From Dysgonomonas sp. BGC7 (GTDB taxonomy: Bacteria > Bacteroidota > Bacteroidia > Bacteroidales > Dysgonomonadaceae), in assembly GCF_001261735.1 (NCBI RefSeq), contig NZ_CVRP01000010.1, forward strand, positions 248,001 through 312,000: a stretch of DNA of 64,000 bases, given 5' to 3'. Positions 6,484 to 14,359 of the stretch are shown piece after piece (position 1 is the first letter of the stretch; every line of letters starts with the position of its first letter). The notes under the pieces are model-generated. The model worked only from the letters and a program-made list of their open reading frames with translations, was not told the origin of the DNA and did not search any database. The translations under genes and the position numbers were made by a program.

Positions 6484-7530
6484 TTAATTATTCTCTGGTC
6501 TTAGTTTTCTTACTACTGCACCTGTACGCCACATTTCACTTTCGCGAAGAGCTTTAAGTTCTTCTTCCAGTTTCTCGCGGTAATCAGGTTTAGAGTTTGT
6601 ATCTATCGAGCGTTGAGCTTCGTTTCCTTTTGCCACCTCATCGTATAGCTTTGCAAATACTGGTTTTGTAGCATCATGGAAAGGTCCCATCCAATCAAGA
6701 GCACCACGTTGAGCAGTAGTAGAACAGTTGGCATACATCCAGTCCATTCCTTTTTCTGCAAATAATGGCATCAATGATTGAGTTAGCTCTTCTACTGTTT
6801 CGTTGAAAGCTTCTGACGGAGAGTGTCCGTTTTCGCGCAATACTTCATACTGAGCCAAAAGGATTCCTTGTATTGCTCCCATAAGTGTACCCCGCTCGCC
6901 TGTAAGGTCAGAATATACTTCACGTTTGAAATCTGTTTCGAACAAATAACCGGAACCAACTCCGATACCAAGTGCTATTACACGTTCTTTAGCACGACCT
7001 GTAGCATCCTGGAATATAGCATAGCTTGAATTTAGTCCACGACCTTCAAGGAACATACGGCGAAGACTTGTTCCCGATCCTTTAGGTGCAACCAAGATAA
7101 CATCTACATCAGCAGGAGGAATAATTCCTGTACGCTCTTTGTATGTGATACCAAAACCGTGTGAGAAATATAATGCTTTACCTGCAGTAAGGTAAGGTTT
7201 GATGCGAGGCCATACCTCTATCTGAGCTGCATCGGACAATAGATATTGAACGATTGTACCTCTTTCGGCAGCTTCCTCTATTTCGAACAGAGTTTCGCCC
7301 GGTACCCAACCATCGGCAATGGCTTTTTCCCAAGTCTTACCGCCTTTTCGTTGTCCGATAATCACGTTAAAACCATTGTCGCGAAGATTCAATGCTTGTC
7401 CCGGACCTTGTACACCGTAGCCAATAACTGCGATTGTTTCATTCTTCAATACTTCTCTTGCTTTTTCCAAAGGAAATTCATCGCGGGTAGCTACTTGTTC
7501 TACAACGCCACCAAAATTCATTTCTGCCAT
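6484..7530 (-). CDS. ilvC: Ketol-acid reductoisomerase (NADP+)
   Basis: This enzyme converts acetolactate or acetohydroxybutyrate to the dihydroxy acid with NAD(P)H and Mg2+, the second shared step of valine, leucine and isoleucine synthesis. The protein has 348 residues. The nucleotide-binding loop is GYGVQGPGQALNL, followed by IIGQRKGGKTW, where basic residues favour NADPH. The metal-site segment AIQGILLAQYEVLRENGHSP and the downstream CSTTAQRGALDW are conserved. Its length fits class I. It is the last gene of the minus-strand ilvD-ilvB-ilvN-thioesterase-ilvC operon, 40 bases after the thioesterase gene. Confidence 0.96.
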   Translation of the reverse strand: MAEMNFGGVVEQVATRDEFPLEKAREVLKNETIAVIGYGVQGPGQALNLRDNGFNVIIGQRKGGKTWEKAIADGWVPGETLFEIEEAAERGTIVQYLLSDAAQIEVWPRIKPYLTAGKALYFSHGFGITYKERTGIIPPADVDVILVAPKGSGTSLRRMFLEGRGLNSSYAIFQDATGRAKERVIALGIGVGSGYLFETDFKREVYSDLTGERGTLMGAIQGILLAQYEVLRENGHSPSEAFNETVEELTQSLMPLFAEKGMDWMYANCSTTAQRGALDWMGPFHDATKPVFAKLYDEVAKGNEAQRSIDTNSKPDYREKLEEELKALRESEMWRTGAVVRKLRPENN

Positions 7531-7570: not shown

Positions 7571-8308
7571 TTAGTTCCATACTACCTTAGCCGAACATAC
7601 ATTTGTTTCGCCGTCTCGCATTTCCAGAATGAATGTATCATTATCATCTGAGCGGCTCATTATATCCAGCTTCGAACCATAACGCCCTTCTGCCACATAA
7701 TTGATCTCGATTCGGCGTATTTCTTTTTCTTTAAACATCTCTATATCGAACACATCTACAAAATGCTCTATATACTTCATACTATTGAGATGCTTGTTTA
7801 TATCCACATCACTATACTTTACTGTAAATTCCGAAACCAAACTACCATCTTCTTTCAATAAAGGTATTTTAGACAGCCCATCTATAGGACATTCGAAATT
7901 TGTATTTATATAATCTGTCAATCCGTCCAATTCTAAAATATTAGTAGGTTTACGGGTTGTTAGATCTATTGAAGCCCAAAGAGAGCGGGCATAACCCAAA
8001 ATCCTCCCATCGGCATCTTCAAAAGCGAAATGACGCTCTGTAAACAGACGATTCACACTCACAATCCAGGTCTTAATAATAAGAACTGTATCATTTTTAG
8101 GATATTCGTATAGTTCTATCGCCATACGAGACAATACCCAGACACGTTGCTGAGACGTCATATCAGAATATCCAAACCCTCTCTCTTCGGCATGTTTAGT
8201 TGCTGCCTGTAACATAAAGCCACCTAACATGGGAAGGGTTGCTTTTCCTCTGAAATCTGTCAAATAAGCGTCTATCGTAAATTCATATTTACCTATGGGT
8301 GCTAACAT
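7571..8308 (-). CDS. Acyl-ACP thioesterase
   Basis: A 245-residue member of the FatA/FatB-like acyl-ACP thioesterase family, which releases free fatty acids from acyl carrier protein. Two hotdog domains are visible. The N-terminal one contains GFGYSDMTSQQRVWVLSRM and a region about TERHFAFEDADGRILGYARSLW. The C-terminal one has VKYSDVDINKHLNSMKYIEH, holding the Asn and His typical of the catalytic site. It sits between ilvN and ilvC on the same strand, in what looks like one transcript. The same gene order occurs in Bacteroides, which suggests a link between branched-chain precursors and branched fatty acids, but that is inference. Confidence 0.88.
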   Translation of the reverse strand: MLAPIGKYEFTIDAYLTDFRGKATLPMLGGFMLQAATKHAEERGFGYSDMTSQQRVWVLSRMAIELYEYPKNDTVLIIKTWIVSVNRLFTERHFAFEDADGRILGYARSLWASIDLTTRKPTNILELDGLTDYINTNFECPIDGLSKIPLLKEDGSLVSEFTVKYSDVDINKHLNSMKYIEHFVDVFDIEMFKEKEIRRIEINYVAEGRYGSKLDIMSRSDDNDTFILEMRDGETNVCSAKVVWN

Positions 8309-8434: not shown

Positions 8435-8986
8435 TTAGCTATTAACTTTATCTTTTTTATCCAGTTCGGCAAGCATATCGCTAAGCCGTTCTATTTTCGA
8501 TTTTGTTATCGCTACCCTTCCGGAACGGATAAACTGCAACACTCCGATAGATTTACTTAATTCTTCGAAAAGATCCTGCGTTTCCTGATAGTGTCCTGTC
8601 TTTTCAAGAACCACATTATTTTCATTTATATCGAGGATACGGGCATTGTGTTTACGAACAAGTTCCTCTACTGAAGATATTTTGAGAAAATCGGAAGTTG
8701 CTAATTTATATAAGGCTATCTCCTGATATATCAGCTCTTCGTTCGTATTATAGTACGATTTCAGAACATCTACGCGCTTATCAATCTGAAGGACTACTTT
8801 CCGTACAGTTTCTTCGTCACAAAATACGGTAACTGTAAATTTGTGAATTCCTTCTATAGCCGAAGCCGACACCGACAACGTTTCTATATTCAACTGCCGA
8901 CGGGTAAAAACACTTGTTACCTGACTCAACAGACCTACTGTATTTTCGGAGAATATGGTTATTGTATATAATGTTTTATCTTCCAT
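8435..8986 (-). CDS. ilvN: Acetolactate synthase regulatory (small) subunit
   Basis: This is the small subunit that stimulates acetolactate synthase and carries the valine feedback site. It has 183 residues. The N-terminal ACT domain is clear (TITIFSENTVGLLSQVTSVF at about residues 8-27, then the RRQLNIETLSVS element). A C-terminal ALS_ss_C-like domain starts near residue 90 (HNARILDINENNVVLEKTGH). It follows ilvB after an unusually long 189-base gap that holds a copy of a dispersed 29-bp repeat. This family is called ilvN or ilvH in different species. Confidence 0.93.
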   Translation of the reverse strand: MEDKTLYTITIFSENTVGLLSQVTSVFTRRQLNIETLSVSASAIEGIHKFTVTVFCDEETVRKVVLQIDKRVDVLKSYYNTNEELIYQEIALYKLATSDFLKISSVEELVRKHNARILDINENNVVLEKTGHYQETQDLFEELSKSIGVLQFIRSGRVAITKSKIERLSDMLAELDKKDKVNS

Positions 8987-9175: not shown

Positions 9176-10888
9176 TTATTCATTACCCAGCAAGATATTA
9201 GTTACACATGTGCCGGCTGGCACCATCGGATAAACCATACCCTTAGCTTCCACCTGAACATCGAGCAGATAAGAACCTTTGTGTGTTATCATCCTATTTA
9301 TTGCCGCATCAAGGCCGGCACGGTCTTCTACTTTTTCGCTCTTTATATTATATGCTTCTGCAATCTTTACAAAGTCGGGGTTTGTCATCACTGTTTCCGA
9401 ATAACGTTCATCAAAGAATAACTCCTGCCACTGACGCACCATGCCAAGAAAGTGATTATTCAATAGGATTATTTTCACATCCACATTGTATTGCATAATT
9501 ACACCTAGTTCTTGTATAGTCATCTGGATACCTCCATCGCCCACAAAAAGGCATACAGTACGATCTTGTGCACCATATTTAGCTCCGATAGCTGCCGGAA
9601 GACCAAATCCCATAGTACCAAGCCCGCCGGAAGTAACAACACTTCGACTTTTAGTGTACTTGAAATAGCGCACAGCCATCATTTGGTGTTGTCCAACATC
9701 GGTTACTAATACAGCATTATTTCCTGTTGCCTCAGAGACTTTATTTATTACCTCTCCCATCTTCAACTGTCCCGATGTGGGGTAAAGCTCATTATCGATA
9801 ACAACATCATATTCTCTTTTATAGCAAGCCTTAAACTCGCTTAACCATTCCGGATAACTCTTATTTTCTAATTGCTCGGTTACCAAAGGAAGAGTATCTT
9901 TTACGTCTCCCAAAACACGGGCGGTAACAGCAACATTCTTATTAATTTCGGCTTTATCTATATCGAAATGTATTACTTTTGCTTGTTTGGCATAGGTTTT
10001 AAGATCTCCGGTAACACGATCATCGAAACGCATACCAATAGCAATGAGCACATCACATTCGTTTGTTTTCTGGTTTGGAGCAACATTACCATGCATACCC
10101 AACATACCTACATTCAACTCGTGACTGGACGGTATTGCCGACAATCCTAATACAGTAGATGCTGTAGGTACACCTGATTTTTCTAAAAATGCCAGCAATT
10201 CTTTTTCCGCATTTCCCAGAATAACCCCTTGTCCGACAAGAGCAAACGGTTTTTGTGCTTCATTTATTATTTTTGCAGCAATAGTAATCTCAGTTTCTTT
10301 TACATCAGGCTTGGGCTGATAACTACGGATAAATGTAGCCTTTGTATATTCAAAGTTTTCCAACAACCCGAATTGGGCATCTTTAGTTAAGTCTAAAACG
10401 ACAGGTCCCGGACGTCCTGTAGAGGCAATATAGAATGCTCTGGACACCGCCCACGCAATATCCTCGGGACGGCGAATTTGATACGACCATTTAGATACAG
10501 GCTGAGTGATACCGACTACATCGGCTTCTTGAAAAGCATCACTACCCAATAGAGATGAAACGACTTGTCCCGATATAACAACAAGAGGGGTACTATCGAG
10601 CATAGCATCTGCTACTCCTGTTATTGTATTGGTCGCTCCCGGGCCAGATGTAACAAGAGCTACACCAACCTTTCCCGATGTACGGGCAAAACCTTGCGCA
10701 GCATGTGTGGCACCTTGTTCGTGACGAACCAAAACATGATTAATCTCGTGTTTATGATCATATAAACAGTCGAACACGGGCATTATTGCTCCTCCCGGAT
10801 ACCCGAATATGGTATCTACCCTCTCATTCAATAGAGACTGAATAAGAGCTTCACTTCCTGTTATTTTATTATTAGTCATATGTTTCAT
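9176..10888 (-). CDS. ilvB: Acetolactate synthase catalytic (large) subunit
   Basis: This ThDP- and FAD-dependent enzyme condenses two pyruvates, or pyruvate with 2-oxobutyrate, in the first shared step of branched-chain amino acid synthesis. The protein has 570 residues. The N-terminal ThDP domain holds the catalytic Glu in LVRHEQGATHAAQGFAR. The central FAD-binding domain contains IAIGMRFDDRVTGD. The C-terminal domain carries the ThDP/Mg motif GDGGIQMTIQELGVIMQYN with the trailing LLNN. The start ATG at 10888 is followed by a second ATG three codons in; either is possible. It lies 53 bases after ilvD. Confidence 0.97.
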   Translation of the reverse strand: MKHMTNNKITGSEALIQSLLNERVDTIFGYPGGAIMPVFDCLYDHKHEINHVLVRHEQGATHAAQGFARTSGKVGVALVTSGPGATNTITGVADAMLDSTPLVVISGQVVSSLLGSDAFQEADVVGITQPVSKWSYQIRRPEDIAWAVSRAFYIASTGRPGPVVLDLTKDAQFGLLENFEYTKATFIRSYQPKPDVKETEITIAAKIINEAQKPFALVGQGVILGNAEKELLAFLEKSGVPTASTVLGLSAIPSSHELNVGMLGMHGNVAPNQKTNECDVLIAIGMRFDDRVTGDLKTYAKQAKVIHFDIDKAEINKNVAVTARVLGDVKDTLPLVTEQLENKSYPEWLSEFKACYKREYDVVIDNELYPTSGQLKMGEVINKVSEATGNNAVLVTDVGQHQMMAVRYFKYTKSRSVVTSGGLGTMGFGLPAAIGAKYGAQDRTVCLFVGDGGIQMTIQELGVIMQYNVDVKIILLNNHFLGMVRQWQELFFDERYSETVMTNPDFVKIAEAYNIKSEKVEDRAGLDAAINRMITHKGSYLLDVQVEAKGMVYPMVPAGTCVTNILLGNE

Positions 10889-10941: not shown

Positions 10942-12771
10942 CTACTCTATTATTCTTATCGCACCTTTATCGGCCGAGCTAACCATACTTGCATACGCTC
11001 TCAAGGCTTTCGACACATAGCGTTCCCGGTCGGGCTTAAATGCATCTTTTCCTTTTGCCACTTCTTGTCTACGGCGTTCTTCCAATTCTGCATCGGAAAT
11101 CTTCACATTTATAGAACGGTTAGGAATATCTATCTCTATAATATCTCCATTTCTTACTAAACCTATTGCTCCACCAGAAGCAGCTTCGGGTGAAACGTGA
11201 CCGATAGACAAGCCGGATGTACCTCCAGAGAAGCGTCCGTCTGTAATCAAAGCACATTCTTTACCCAGATGTTTCGATTTGATATATGATGTAGGATAAA
11301 GCATTTCCTGCATTCCCGGTCCACCCTTTGGTCCTTCGTATGTAATAACTACAACATCTCCAGCTACTACCTGATCTTTTAATATTCCTTCGCAAGCAGC
11401 ATCCTGAGAATGGAAAACTTTTGCTTTGCCGGAAAATTTGAAGATGCTCTCATCTACCCCTGCCGTTTTTACAACGCAGCCATCTAGGGCAATATTGCCT
11501 TTGAGTATGGCTAATCCGCCATCTTTAGTGTAAGCATGTTCCATATCACGAATACAACCGTTTGCCCTGTCTGTATCAAGAGTCGGATAGTAGTTATCCT
11601 GAGAGCCCATCACCAGATTGAAGCGGTTTCCGGGAGCCGACTTATATAATATTTCAGCTTCGTGCGACAATTCAGGCTTTGTTATATCATATTTTTCAAT
11701 AGCCGCGGCAAGTGTAAGTCCATCTACCCGTGGTACATTAGGATCAATAAGTTTACCTTTGTTCAGTTCGTTCATTATACCAAGAATACCTCCTGCCCTA
11801 TTCACATCCTGTATATGATATTTCTGAGTGTTGGGAGCTACCTTACAAAGACATGGAGCTTTGCGGGAAAGTTTATCTATATCATCCATCGAAAAATCGA
11901 CTTCGCCTTCTTGAGCAATGGCCAAAAGGTGTAAGATAGTATTTGTAGATCCTCCCATAGCTATATCGAGAGTCATAGCATTGAGGAATGCTGTTTTTGT
12001 AGCAATATTTCGAGGCAATACCGATTCGTCTCCATCGCGGTAATATTTATATGCGTTTTCAACGATTTGCTTAGCTGCATTTTTAAAAAGTTTCGAACGG
12101 TTGGCATGTGTGGCTACAATAGTTCCATTACCGGGCAAGGCAAGTCCGATTGCTTCATTCAGGCAGTTCATAGAGTTTGCCGTAAACATACCCGAGCAAG
12201 AACCACATGTAGGACATGCAGCACGTTCTATGGCATTTACTTCTTTGTCCGAAACTGTATCGTCCGCAGCTTTTATCATTGCATCTATCAGGTCGAGATG
12301 CTGATCGCCAAGCTCTCCGGCTTCCATAGGGCCTCCCGAAACAAAGATTGCCGGTATATTTAAACGCATGGCAGCCATAAGCATACCTGGAGTAATTTTA
12401 TCACAATTGCTTATGCACACCATAGCATCTGCTTTATGTGCATTGACCATATATTCGACACTATCTGCTATCAGGTCGCGGGATGGTAAAGAGTAGAGCA
12501 TTCCATCATGTCCCATAGCAATACCATCGTCGATGGCAATAGTATTAAATTCGGCGGCAAAACAACCCAAAGCTTCTATTTCGGCTTTGACTTTCTGACC
12601 AATATCGTGTAGGTGGACGTGTCCCGGAACAAACTGTGTAAAAGAGTTTACAATCGCAATTAGTGGTTTACCCATCTGTTCTTCTTTCATTCCGTTAGCT
12701 CTCCATAGAGCTCTGGCGCCAGCCATACGTCTGCCTTGTGTACTGGTAGAACTTCTTAATTCAAATCCCAT
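10942..12771 (-). CDS. ilvD: Dihydroxy-acid dehydratase
   Basis: This iron-sulfur enzyme dehydrates dihydroxy acids to 2-oxoacids, the third shared step of valine and isoleucine synthesis. It has 609 residues. Cluster and metal motifs are visible: [20 protein letters not shown] at about residue 120 and [18 protein letters not shown] near 190, with [20 protein letters not shown] in the C-terminal domain. It is the first structural gene of the ilv operon. Its leader contains a peptide-coding attenuator (12822-13012), so expression should respond to charging of Ile, Leu and Val tRNAs. Confidence 0.97.
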
Positions 12772-12821
12772 AATTTTTTATTTAGCCTTTAGCTTATAGT
12801 TGTCTATTAAACAATATTTAT

Positions 12822-12853
12822 AAAAAAAGCCTTTCCCATAATGAGAAAGGCTT
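12822..12853 (-). terminator. ilv attenuator terminator (3:4 hairpin)
   Basis: On the minus strand AAGCCTTTC (12853-12845) pairs with GAAAGGCTT (12835-12827), closing a short loop, and runs straight into seven Us. It lies between the leader peptide and ilvD, upstream of every structural gene, so it can only be a conditional stop. Confidence 0.92.
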
Positions 12854-12902
12854 ATATTCATTTATTCCTTATATTTTATTCAAAATACATACCTTTCTCA
12901 TT
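12842..12902 (-). promoter_or_regulatory. ilv antiterminator pairing (2:3)
   Basis: On the minus strand AATGAGAAAGG (12902-12892), which overlaps the leader stop codon, is perfectly complementary over 11 bases to CCTTTCTCATT (12850-12840). That second segment includes the 5' arm of the terminator. The two structures are mutually exclusive, as in classical leader-peptide attenuation. Confidence 0.88.
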
Positions 12903-12960
12903 TATTCTGATCGACGAGGAGAATATCAATAATGAGGATATGTAAAAAACAATTTGTCAT
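12898..12960 (-). CDS. ilv operon leader peptide
   Basis: A 20-codon ORF from ATG at 12960 to TGA at 12898 encodes MTNCFLHILIIDILLVDQNK. Nine of the eleven residues 6-16 are Ile, Leu or Val (4 Ile, 4 Leu, 1 Val). Three of the four Leu codons are CTC, which is unlikely to be a favoured codon in so AT-rich a genome. The ORF starts about 20 bases after the predicted transcription start and ends in the antiterminator strand. This is the layout expected of a sensor of branched-chain aminoacyl-tRNA supply: a ribosome stalled on these codons frees segment 2, while one that reaches the stop covers it and lets the terminator form. It is too short for standard gene callers. Confidence 0.88.
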   Translation of the reverse strand: MTNCFLHILIIDILLVDQNK

Positions 12961-12982
12961 TAATTCTATTTGAATATGAACA

Positions 12983-13012
12983 CAAAGTTATAAACTTTTT
13001 TTTAAAAACAAA
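12983..13012 (-). promoter_or_regulatory. ilv operon promoter
   Basis: On the minus strand TTTG (13012-13009) and TAACTTTG (12990-12983) match the Bacteroidota -33 and -7 elements with 18 bases between them, slightly under the usual spacing. The predicted start lies about 20 bases before the leader peptide ATG. Confidence 0.75.
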
Positions 13013-13090
13013 TTTTATCGCTATTTTTTTAAAGAGAGTTGATTTATCGGCAATTTTATTCGATATTTTGATATAAAACTTAAGCTACTT

Positions 13091-14359
13091 TTAATACCGG
13101 TCTTTCCACAGTTTTTTCAACCATTCCACTATTTTCACTTCCGACGAGTTTTGCTGAGGTTTCCAAAACTGACGTCCTTTTATCTCTTGAGGCACATAAT
13201 CCTGCTGTACAAAGTTATTTTCGAAACTGTGAGCATATTGATAATTTTTTCCATAATCCAGCTCTTTCATCAATTTCGTCGGAGCATTTCGCAGGTGTAA
13301 TGGTACGGGCAGATTTCCCGTATCGTTTACCAAAGCAATAGCTTCGTCGATAGATAAATAAGCTGAGTTACTCTTTGGCGACGTGGCTAAGTAGATTGTG
13401 GCTTCGGCAAGCACGATACGTCCCTCGGGCCAGCCAATTTTTTGAAGGGTATCAAAACAGGCATTGGCCAGAAGCAAGGCATTCGGATTTGCCAGCCCGA
13501 TGTCTTCGGCCGCAGATATAACCAGCCTGCGGGCTATGAATTTAGGGTCTTCTCCGCCTGCCACCATTCGTGCAAGCCAATATATAGCCGCATCGGGATC
13601 GCTGCCTCTGATAGATTTTATGAACGCCGATATGATATCATAATGCATTTCGCCCCCCTTATCGTAGGCGGCAGGGTTTTCTTGCAGGCGGTCGGTAATC
13701 AACTTGTCTGTTATTACAACTTTATCTTCTACATCGGCATTAATCACCAAATCGAGAATATTCAATAACTTGCGAGCATCTCCACCCGAAAAACGAAGTA
13801 GGGCATTAGTCTCCTGCAAGTCAATATCGCGTTCTTTCAGAATCACATCTTGAGTTATGGCTCTGTTAGCCAGCTCTATCAGATCATTCTTTCCTAAAGG
13901 CTGTAATACATATACCTGACAGCGGGAAAGCAAAGGCCGTATCACCTCGAAAGAGGGATTTTCCGTTGTGGCTCCAATGAGTGTAATAACCCCCGTTTCG
14001 ACAGCATTGAGCAACGAATCTTGTTGCGACTTAGAGAAGCGATGAATTTCATCTATAAATAAGATAGGACTTTTAGTATTAAAAAACTGTCCCTTCTTGG
14101 CTTGTTCTATTACCTCTCGCACATCCTTTACACCCGAATTAATTGCACTAAGAGTATAGAAAGGCGTATCCAGGGTATTGGCTATAATTTGGGCAAGAGT
14201 CGTTTTTCCTACTCCCGGAGGTCCCCACAAAAGAAAGGAAGGCACCCTACCCGATTCTATCATCTTGCGAAGAATTGCCCCTTCTCCCACAAGATGTTTT
14301 TGGCCTATATATTCATCCAGATTACGTGGTCGCAATCTTTCTGCTAACGGTTGACTCAT
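13091..14359 (-). CDS. rarA: Replication-associated recombination protein A (RarA/MgsA AAA+ ATPase)
   Basis: A 422-residue clamp-loader-like AAA+ ATPase that acts at stalled replication forks. The N-terminus PLAERLRPRNLDEYIGQKHL is typical. Walker A is GPPGVGKTTLA (about residues 47-57) and Walker B is ILFIDEIHRFSKSQQD. Sensor 1 lies in LIGATTENPSFEV. The C-terminal MgsA tetramerisation domain has YWLARMVAGGEDPKFIARRL. The neighbouring phosphatase gene is 92 bases upstream on the same strand. The ilv promoter lies just beyond its stop, so read-through from rarA is possible. Confidence 0.95.
   Translation of the reverse strand: MSQPLAERLRPRNLDEYIGQKHLVGEGAILRKMIESGRVPSFLLWGPPGVGKTTLAQIIANTLDTPFYTLSAINSGVKDVREVIEQAKKGQFFNTKSPILFIDEIHRFSKSQQDSLLNAVETGVITLIGATTENPSFEVIRPLLSRCQVYVLQPLGKNDLIELANRAITQDVILKERDIDLQETNALLRFSGGDARKLLNILDLVINADVEDKVVITDKLITDRLQENPAAYDKGGEMHYDIISAFIKSIRGSDPDAAIYWLARMVAGGEDPKFIARRLVISAAEDIGLANPNALLLANACFDTLQKIGWPEGRIVLAEATIYLATSPKSNSAYLSIDEAIALVNDTGNLPVPLHLRNAPTKLMKELDYGKNYQYAHSFENNFVQQDYVPQEIKGRQFWKPQQNSSEVKIVEWLKKLWKDRY

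Follow-up and report, generated by a model that had tools for sequence, protein, structure and literature searches.

The ilvD gene of Dysgonomonas sp. BGC7 is preceded by a short reading frame and two competing RNA helices. This raises the question whether transcription of the ilv genes is controlled by the ribosome that translates a leader peptide, as had been proposed for this locus from the DNA letters alone (hereafter the sequence-only reading). We examined the locus within the whole stretch of DNA analysed (the window, 64 kb), in related genomes and in comparison with leaders of other amino acid operons.

Anatomy of the ilvD leader and its operon

The features of the locus are listed in the direction of transcription.

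rarA, ending at 13091, minus strand (the same as ilvD): upstream gene, 130 nt ahead of the leader
12983..13012, minus strand: Bacteroidetes-type promoter; -33 TTTG at 13012-13009, 18-nt spacer, -7 TAACTTTG at 12990-12983
12898..12960, minus strand: leader peptide gene MTNCFLHILIIDILLVDQNK, 20 codons; ATG at 12960, stop codon TGA at 12900-12898
12931..12944, minus strand: strand 1, inside the leader ORF; anti-antiterminator or pause hairpin, formed with strand 2 and the adjoining GGTATGT in folds of the full leader
12892..12902, minus strand: strand 2 AATGAGAAAGG, overlapping the leader stop codon; perfect 11-bp complement of strand 3
12840..12850, minus strand: strand 3 CCTTTCTCATT, common to antiterminator and terminator
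12822..12853, minus strand: terminator hairpin 3:4 with U run; stem 12853-12827 of 12 pairs, strand 4 TGGGAAAGGCTT, U run 12828-12822
10942..12771, minus strand: ilvD, dihydroxy-acid dehydratase, predicted first regulated gene (NF009103 and TIGR00110 above cut-off)
9176..10888, minus strand: ilvB, acetolactate synthase large subunit (TIGR00118 above cut-off)
8435..8986, minus strand: ilvN, acetolactate synthase small subunit (TIGR00119 above cut-off)
7571..8308, minus strand: acyl-ACP thioesterase (PF01643 and PF20791 above cut-off)
6484..7530, minus strand: ilvC, ketol-acid reductoisomerase (TIGR00465 above cut-off)

The promoter claimed by the sequence-only reading is present on the minus strand as TTTG-18 nt-TAACTTTG. 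It was called with a -33/-7 consensus which we take to be that of the Bacteroidetes; a generic sigma-70 scan missed it. The -33/-7 pattern occurs 16 times on the minus strand of the window, and no second full copy was found on this strand between 6300 and 13300. An exact TACCTTTG box (-7 type, TAnnTTTG) was observed at 8377-8370 of the minus strand, inside the 126-nt gap between ilvN and the thioesterase gene. Since this box lies ahead of the thioesterase gene, an internal promoter for thioesterase and ilvC is possible, and the response of the whole operon to branched-chain aminoacyl-tRNA levels, expected by the sequence-only reading, is no more than probable for these two genes. The 189-nt gap between ilvB and ilvN gave no sign of a second regulatory element (fold z 0.00), and tRNA genes were not found within the window.

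The leader ORF is exactly as it had been described. It comprises 20 codons, and nine of the eleven consecutive residues 6-16 (LHILIIDILLV) are Ile, Leu or Val. The 11-bp antiterminator, said to begin at the leader stop codon, pairs perfectly and its start was correct to within 2 nt: helix 2:3 begins 2 nt 5' of the TGA (12900-12898), and the stop codon lies inside strand 2. As also proposed, the 5' arm of the terminator is common to both helices. Folding of the 151-nt leader gives -33.3 kcal/mol (z -3.27), which was equalled by none of 200 shuffled sequences. The terminator alone is not significant because shuffles yield as many terminator-like sites (1 found on 1.2 kb; 1.0 ± 0.9 in shuffles). 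The combination of elements is significant, since relatives conserve the layout and since ilvD alone showed it in full among the 46 ORFs of at least 120 aa in the window, ilvD included. The layout was defined in this control as terminator, antiterminator and a short ORF in which one of the tested residue classes accounts for 4 or more of 8 residues.

Conservation and exchange of the helices in Bacteroidales

The comparison with relatives suggested by the sequence-only reading was carried out in the genus and in the order. Leader, antiterminator and terminator were present at all 24 ilvD loci found among 25 Dysgonomonas genomes, the remaining genome (71% complete) yielding no ilvD, and the leaders at these 24 loci are 20-21 codons long. 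In Bacteroidales 110 ilvD loci were collected, of which 99 distinct upstream regions remained after removal of duplicates and of regions shorter than 230 nt. Terminator and antiterminator were both strong (scores of at least 22 and 15, respectively) in 77 of these 99, compared to 1 of 297 dinucleotide-preserving shuffles. Thus, the leader ORF, its regulatory codons and both helices are kept throughout the Dysgonomonas loci and widely in Bacteroidales.

At least 8 of 11 residues are Ile, Leu or Val in 69 of 75 leaders over Bacteroidales, a set in which the leader was picked among candidate ORFs partly by this very content; no leader was obtained at locus L066, and that of L049 was poor (4/11). 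The peptides differ much between families yet keep their I/L/V blocks, as in Bacteroides (L103, ...NLAVLHIIRVVVV...), Parabacteroides (L044, ...LHIILVVVLLVISR) and Paludibacter (L047, ...YTILVLVVVLLV...). In 68 of the 75 leaders no more than 5 nt separate the stop codon from the start of strand 2; in the remaining seven the distance is at least 10 nt, with the stop codon mostly downstream. At five loci (L071, L073, L096, L104, L110) the frame crosses strand 2 and stops about 20 nt later, often with ...SCM or ...GFCM. Some pheA and leuA leaders likewise read through strand 2 and stop about 20 nt later.

The same-strand position of rarA, 130 nt ahead of the leader, would suit an ordinary rarA terminator with a chance reading frame in front of it. 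This explanation is extremely improbable. RarA matched in the examined flank at only 2 of 110 ilvD loci, one of them in this very genome; therefore the terminator belongs with ilvD. Moreover, the leader is conserved and has its own promoter pattern. In 71 of 75 leaders TAnnTTTG occurs no more than 75 nt ahead of the ATG (3.7 expected from mononucleotide shuffles), and in 68 of 75 it has a TTG 17-23 nt ahead of it and so forms the promoter pattern (0.1 expected from such shuffles).

Alignment A2 was used for the analysis of base pairing. From 76 selected leaders 70 were non-redundant, and 68 remained after L066 (without leader) and L037 were left out. At the ten central pairs of the terminator 99.9% of the cells of this alignment are paired, and 16 cells, in 4 pairs, are changed on both sides. 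For helix 2:3 the share of paired cells is 97.4%, and changes on both sides are limited to 3 cells in 2 pairs. Its further pair types did not exceed background (equalled or surpassed in 491 of 500 shuffles), and its covariation score of 0.074 was below that of a control slid by +2 (0.082). Within A2, helix 2:3 is thus conserved, but covariation does not prove it. Strand 3 (CCTTTCTC) hardly changes, as would be expected from its need to pair with both strand 2 and strand 4; these two drift by G-U wobble.

A model, R1, was built from ilvD leaders alone. Its scan of 198 Bacteroidales genomes gave a match at E <= 0.01 in 87. A match lay less than 450 nt upstream of ilvD at at least 50 of 85 ilvD places (at least 49 of 83 genomes), counted from the matches listed, namely those scoring about 43 bits or higher and weaker ones near an ilvD; the other 35 of 85 had none close upstream among these matches. 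We examined 21 of these 35 places (L027 included), a sample without a shuffle baseline, and found a full attenuator in 10 of the 21, one of which (L262) rests on a 6-bp antiterminator. Most of these have different, still complementary strands, and the strand 2/strand 3 pairs include GGTGGAAAGG/CCTTTCCACC, GGAGGGCTG/CAGCCCTCC, AATCGGTAT/ATGCCGATT, GTAAGAATGG/CCATTCTTAC and AATCGG/CCGATT. The other 11 of 21 lack a complete attenuator, four of them (L254, L255, L257, L027) having an ORF with at least 7/11 I/L/V. The places missed by R1 put helix 2:3 to a harder test than the alignment does. Covariation in the 2:3 and 3:4 stems, named by the sequence-only reading as a check, was clear mainly in distant relatives, with few compensating changes inside the alignment.

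The strong conservation of the strand sequences over many Bacteroidales favours a different explanation, in which leader peptide and hairpins regulate without stalling-dependent attenuation, by translational control, by Rho, or by a protein or metabolite that binds the conserved GAGAAAGG/CCTTTCTC RNA. According to the available part of PMC1262725, changes of the regulatory codons in a similar-looking ilvB leader of Streptomyces coelicolor had no effect, and the accessible portion of PMC8632094 includes an ilvD RNA motif from Veillonella among weak riboswitch candidates. Nevertheless, we regard this explanation as unlikely. The double pairing of strand 3 is by itself enough to freeze it, strands 2 and 4 are free to wobble, other genomes replace all three strands, and the stop codon is locked to strand 2. 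Furthermore, Rfam release 15 gave no match of the ilvD leader above threshold, neither to a riboswitch nor to a T-box, and none of these two kinds even at E <= 5. The best cis-regulatory match was PyrR with 27.8 of 54 bits. Attenuation by a stalled ribosome, the interpretation of the sequence-only reading, is supported by the conservation of leader, codons and alternative helices in relatives.

Two complete attenuators in series precede a single ilvD in two genomes (G416 and G509). In L130 (G509:C68:23780-24068) MRNLNNIILSIIIILVVVIP with a terminator is followed by MNTTLIIIVVVIILILIRT with its own terminator, and L129 (G416:C25:18303-18547) carries the tandem leaders MKSLSLHLIQIIIRVVLSHGRERGV and MKKMNRSMYNYIIVINILLVVLQN. 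The ilvD leader layout of Dysgonomonas recurs in records that bear the names Phocaeicola vulgatus ATCC 8482 (L094) and Bacteroides fragilis (L068), which makes the mechanism testable in cultured gut Bacteroidales.

A search of 296 genomes across the phylum gave matches in 91, from which 20 ilvD upstream regions outside Bacteroidales were drawn. None had a complete attenuator, a weak negative as most start codons were guessed. A terminator-like hairpin occurred in 2 of the 20, both without leader, and a short ORF with at least 8/11 I/L/V in 5 of the 20, without terminator. In one genome listed only as belonging to the same phylum (G283:C57:34801-36621) IlvD is 79% identical to that of the window and no leader was seen ahead of it; the other IlvD matches outside the order, unlike this one, show roughly 49-54% identity.

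Leaders of other amino acid operons

The model R1 also matched at places away from ilvD. Among the matches listed, 36 of at least 43 bits were of this kind. The 18 that were fetched precede leuA (15), trpB (1), gltB (1) and, in one spurious-looking case (G000:C10:152640), an ORF judged permease-like by eye. The downstream gene was identified by family model for leuA and trpB of the Dysgonomonas genome itself and for gltB, and by eye for the others. The match ahead of the glutamate synthase large-subunit gene (L122, G377:C2:74476-74559) has the leader MKTKHTSFANKHAYKHNKIVQ with three His.

In the genome of strain BGC7 four further leaders were found. The leuA leader MITHSIIISSLIILWRNLG is rich in Ile and Leu, with three Ile in a row, and I/L leaders occur at 22 of 24 Dysgonomonas leuA loci. 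The trpB leader MNFLLTNTFWWWLLQLKKS contains WWW and matches Rfam Bacteroid-trp with 60.6 bits (cut-off 49). The hisG leader MNNNTHHHHFILLPLGK (L168, G000:C7) contains HHHH and was missed by the automatic test. Among 20 of 25 Dysgonomonas hisG matches examined (L151-L170), His-run leaders were detected automatically in 13 and by eye in 18. The pheA leader MKNFSYTYFFFFYFYFKK (L204, G000:C1) contains FFFFYFYF and is followed by antiterminator ACAGGATTTTGT and terminator AATCCTGT; Phe/Tyr leaders precede pheA in 19 of 20 cases examined (L195-L214) out of 22 Dysgonomonas matches. Ahead of thrA no leader was detected in 10 upstream regions (of 22 genus matches), where coding sequence extends almost up to the gene.

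Thus, the leader residues agree with the pathway in five operons (ilv, leu, his, trp and phe). No other observation speaks as strongly against a chance reading frame or an unrelated small protein. The ilvD leader peptide is short and hydrophobic, as would be expected of a membrane peptide or type I toxin with its own function that lies ahead of ilvD by chance. Leaders of the same layout, however, are rich in His at hisG, in Phe/Tyr at pheA and in Trp at trpB, the ilvD peptides vary greatly between families while their I/L/V content stays, and none of the 45 further ORFs that served as controls in the window has the layout. An independent small protein is therefore highly improbable.

Predicted mechanism and relation to known systems

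The ilvD leader combines a short ORF rich in codons for the pathway products, a terminator before the first gene and an antiterminator that excludes this terminator and can be covered by a ribosome at the stop codon. We consider it very likely that it works as a classical ribosome-mediated transcription attenuator. This reading is based on the anatomy, the conservation, the exchange of helices in relatives, the residue match in five operons and the computed folds; termination in cells, ribosome stalling, the response to starvation and the extent of the regulated transcript are what we infer from it.

According to this model, transcription would start immediately after the -7 box (12983), and a ribosome would begin the 20-codon leader. 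With well-charged Ile-, Leu- and Val-tRNAs it would reach the stop codon inside strand 2 and cover this strand. Strands 3 and 4 would then pair and transcription would end at the U run 12828-12822. With poor charging the ribosome would stall on the Ile, Leu and Val codons and leave strand 2 free to pair with strand 3 before strand 4 has been transcribed, resulting in read-through into ilvD-ilvB-ilvN and probably on to thioesterase-ilvC. Without translation, 1:2 would be expected to form first, leaving 3:4 to terminate. Judged from its sequence, the switch very probably lets the cell sense its Ile, Leu and Val supply through its ribosomes.

Folds were computed for different ribosome positions, assuming a footprint of 11 nt beyond the A site. 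If the A site is placed at codons 10-15 and strand 4 is absent, the RNA adopts the antiterminator fold (-19.8 kcal/mol). A ribosome at the stop codon covers strand 2; only -1.7 is then gained until strand 4 is present, after which the terminator forms with -15.8. For the complete RNA, the terminator is lowest in energy if the ribosome is stalled at codon 8, 13 or 16, whereas stalling at codon 10 or 15 gives preference to the antiterminator. Because these energies favour neither helix consistently, the choice between them must, in the model, rest on the order of synthesis, i.e. be kinetic. If both the ribosome and strand 4 are absent, the antiterminator (-23.7) and not 1:2 is the most stable fold.

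The 1:2 region, from leader start to strand 3, was compared with versions carrying other synonymous codons. Against permuted codons the mean z was -1.21 (standard error 0.11) for 74 leaders, 68 of which folded better than their permuted versions in a statistic that ignores kinship. Against codons drawn by ilvD usage the mean z was -1.0, with p <= 0.05 in 17 of 74 (kinship ignored); for the leader of the window p was 0.08 against random synonymous codons. Codon choice in the leaders differs from that in ilvD genes for Leu (CTC 0.39 versus 0.11), Val (GTC 0.58 versus 0.14) and Ile (ATT 0.80 versus 0.40). This bias may serve either pairing or sensitivity to charging.

The ilv, leu, his, trp and pheA leaders of gammaproteobacteria are leader-peptide attenuators. 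The Dysgonomonas leader shares with them the short ORF of end-product codons, the stop codon at the antiterminator, the mutually exclusive helices 2:3 and 3:4 and the U run. It differs in the gene order ilvD-ilvB-ilvN-thioesterase-ilvC and in its Bacteroidetes-type -33/-7 promoter. The sequence-only reading had called the design best known from gammaproteobacteria, but it is not wholly new to the phylum. The leader-peptide motif Bacteroid-trp (RF01692), described for Bacteroidetes in Table 1 of PMC2864571 as far as this source was available, matches the BGC7 genome itself ahead of trpB and was found in 18 of 25 genus genomes, in 15 of them above cut-off. Like the ilvD leader it is a leader-peptide RNA of the same phylum, whereas its codons are for Trp and its helix sequences are different. 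RF01692 gave no match at E <= 5 in 12600-13200 (cut-off 49 bits), and RF01859 (Phe_leader) matched the ilvD leader with 18.6 bits at E 1.8, below its cut-off of 55 bits. None of the leuA (seven loci), hisG (two loci) and pheA (two loci) leaders had a match above threshold in Rfam release 15 either, so that the trp leader is the only one of the five with such a match.

Actinobacterial ilvB leaders resemble the ilvD leader in runs of Ile, Val and Leu codons and a terminator ahead of a branched-chain operon; they belong to another phylum, and in the available text the ORF overlaps the terminator (PMC1262725). Long 5' UTRs of Bacteroides thetaiotaomicron hold short ORFs reminiscent of attenuation leader peptides, e.g. 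BT_4401, according to the accessible part of PMC7366714. In the mostly non-subscription literature we found little on leader-peptide attenuation in Bacteroidetes, and an earlier prediction for ilv or his is possible. A 2010 paper, in its available part, states that leader-peptide systems had until then been demonstrated for Proteobacteria and Actinobacteria alone, and adds a case from Firmicutes (PMC2965389).

The ilvD attenuator represents a system that spans several operons, is widespread in the order and seems to have been described little. It is likely that Bacteroidales control amino acid operons broadly by attenuation, with an ilv, leu, his, trp and phe set that parallels the enterobacterial one but has promoters of the phylum type and unrelated helices, and that is doubled before ilvD in some lineages. 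If so, this would explain the tuning of several amino acid pathways in Bacteroidales, and many short leader genes would have to be added to the annotation. It would also contradict the view, expressed in the available portion of a 2013 paper, that amino acid attenuators may have originated in gammaproteobacteria and been transferred on few occasions (PMC3766115).
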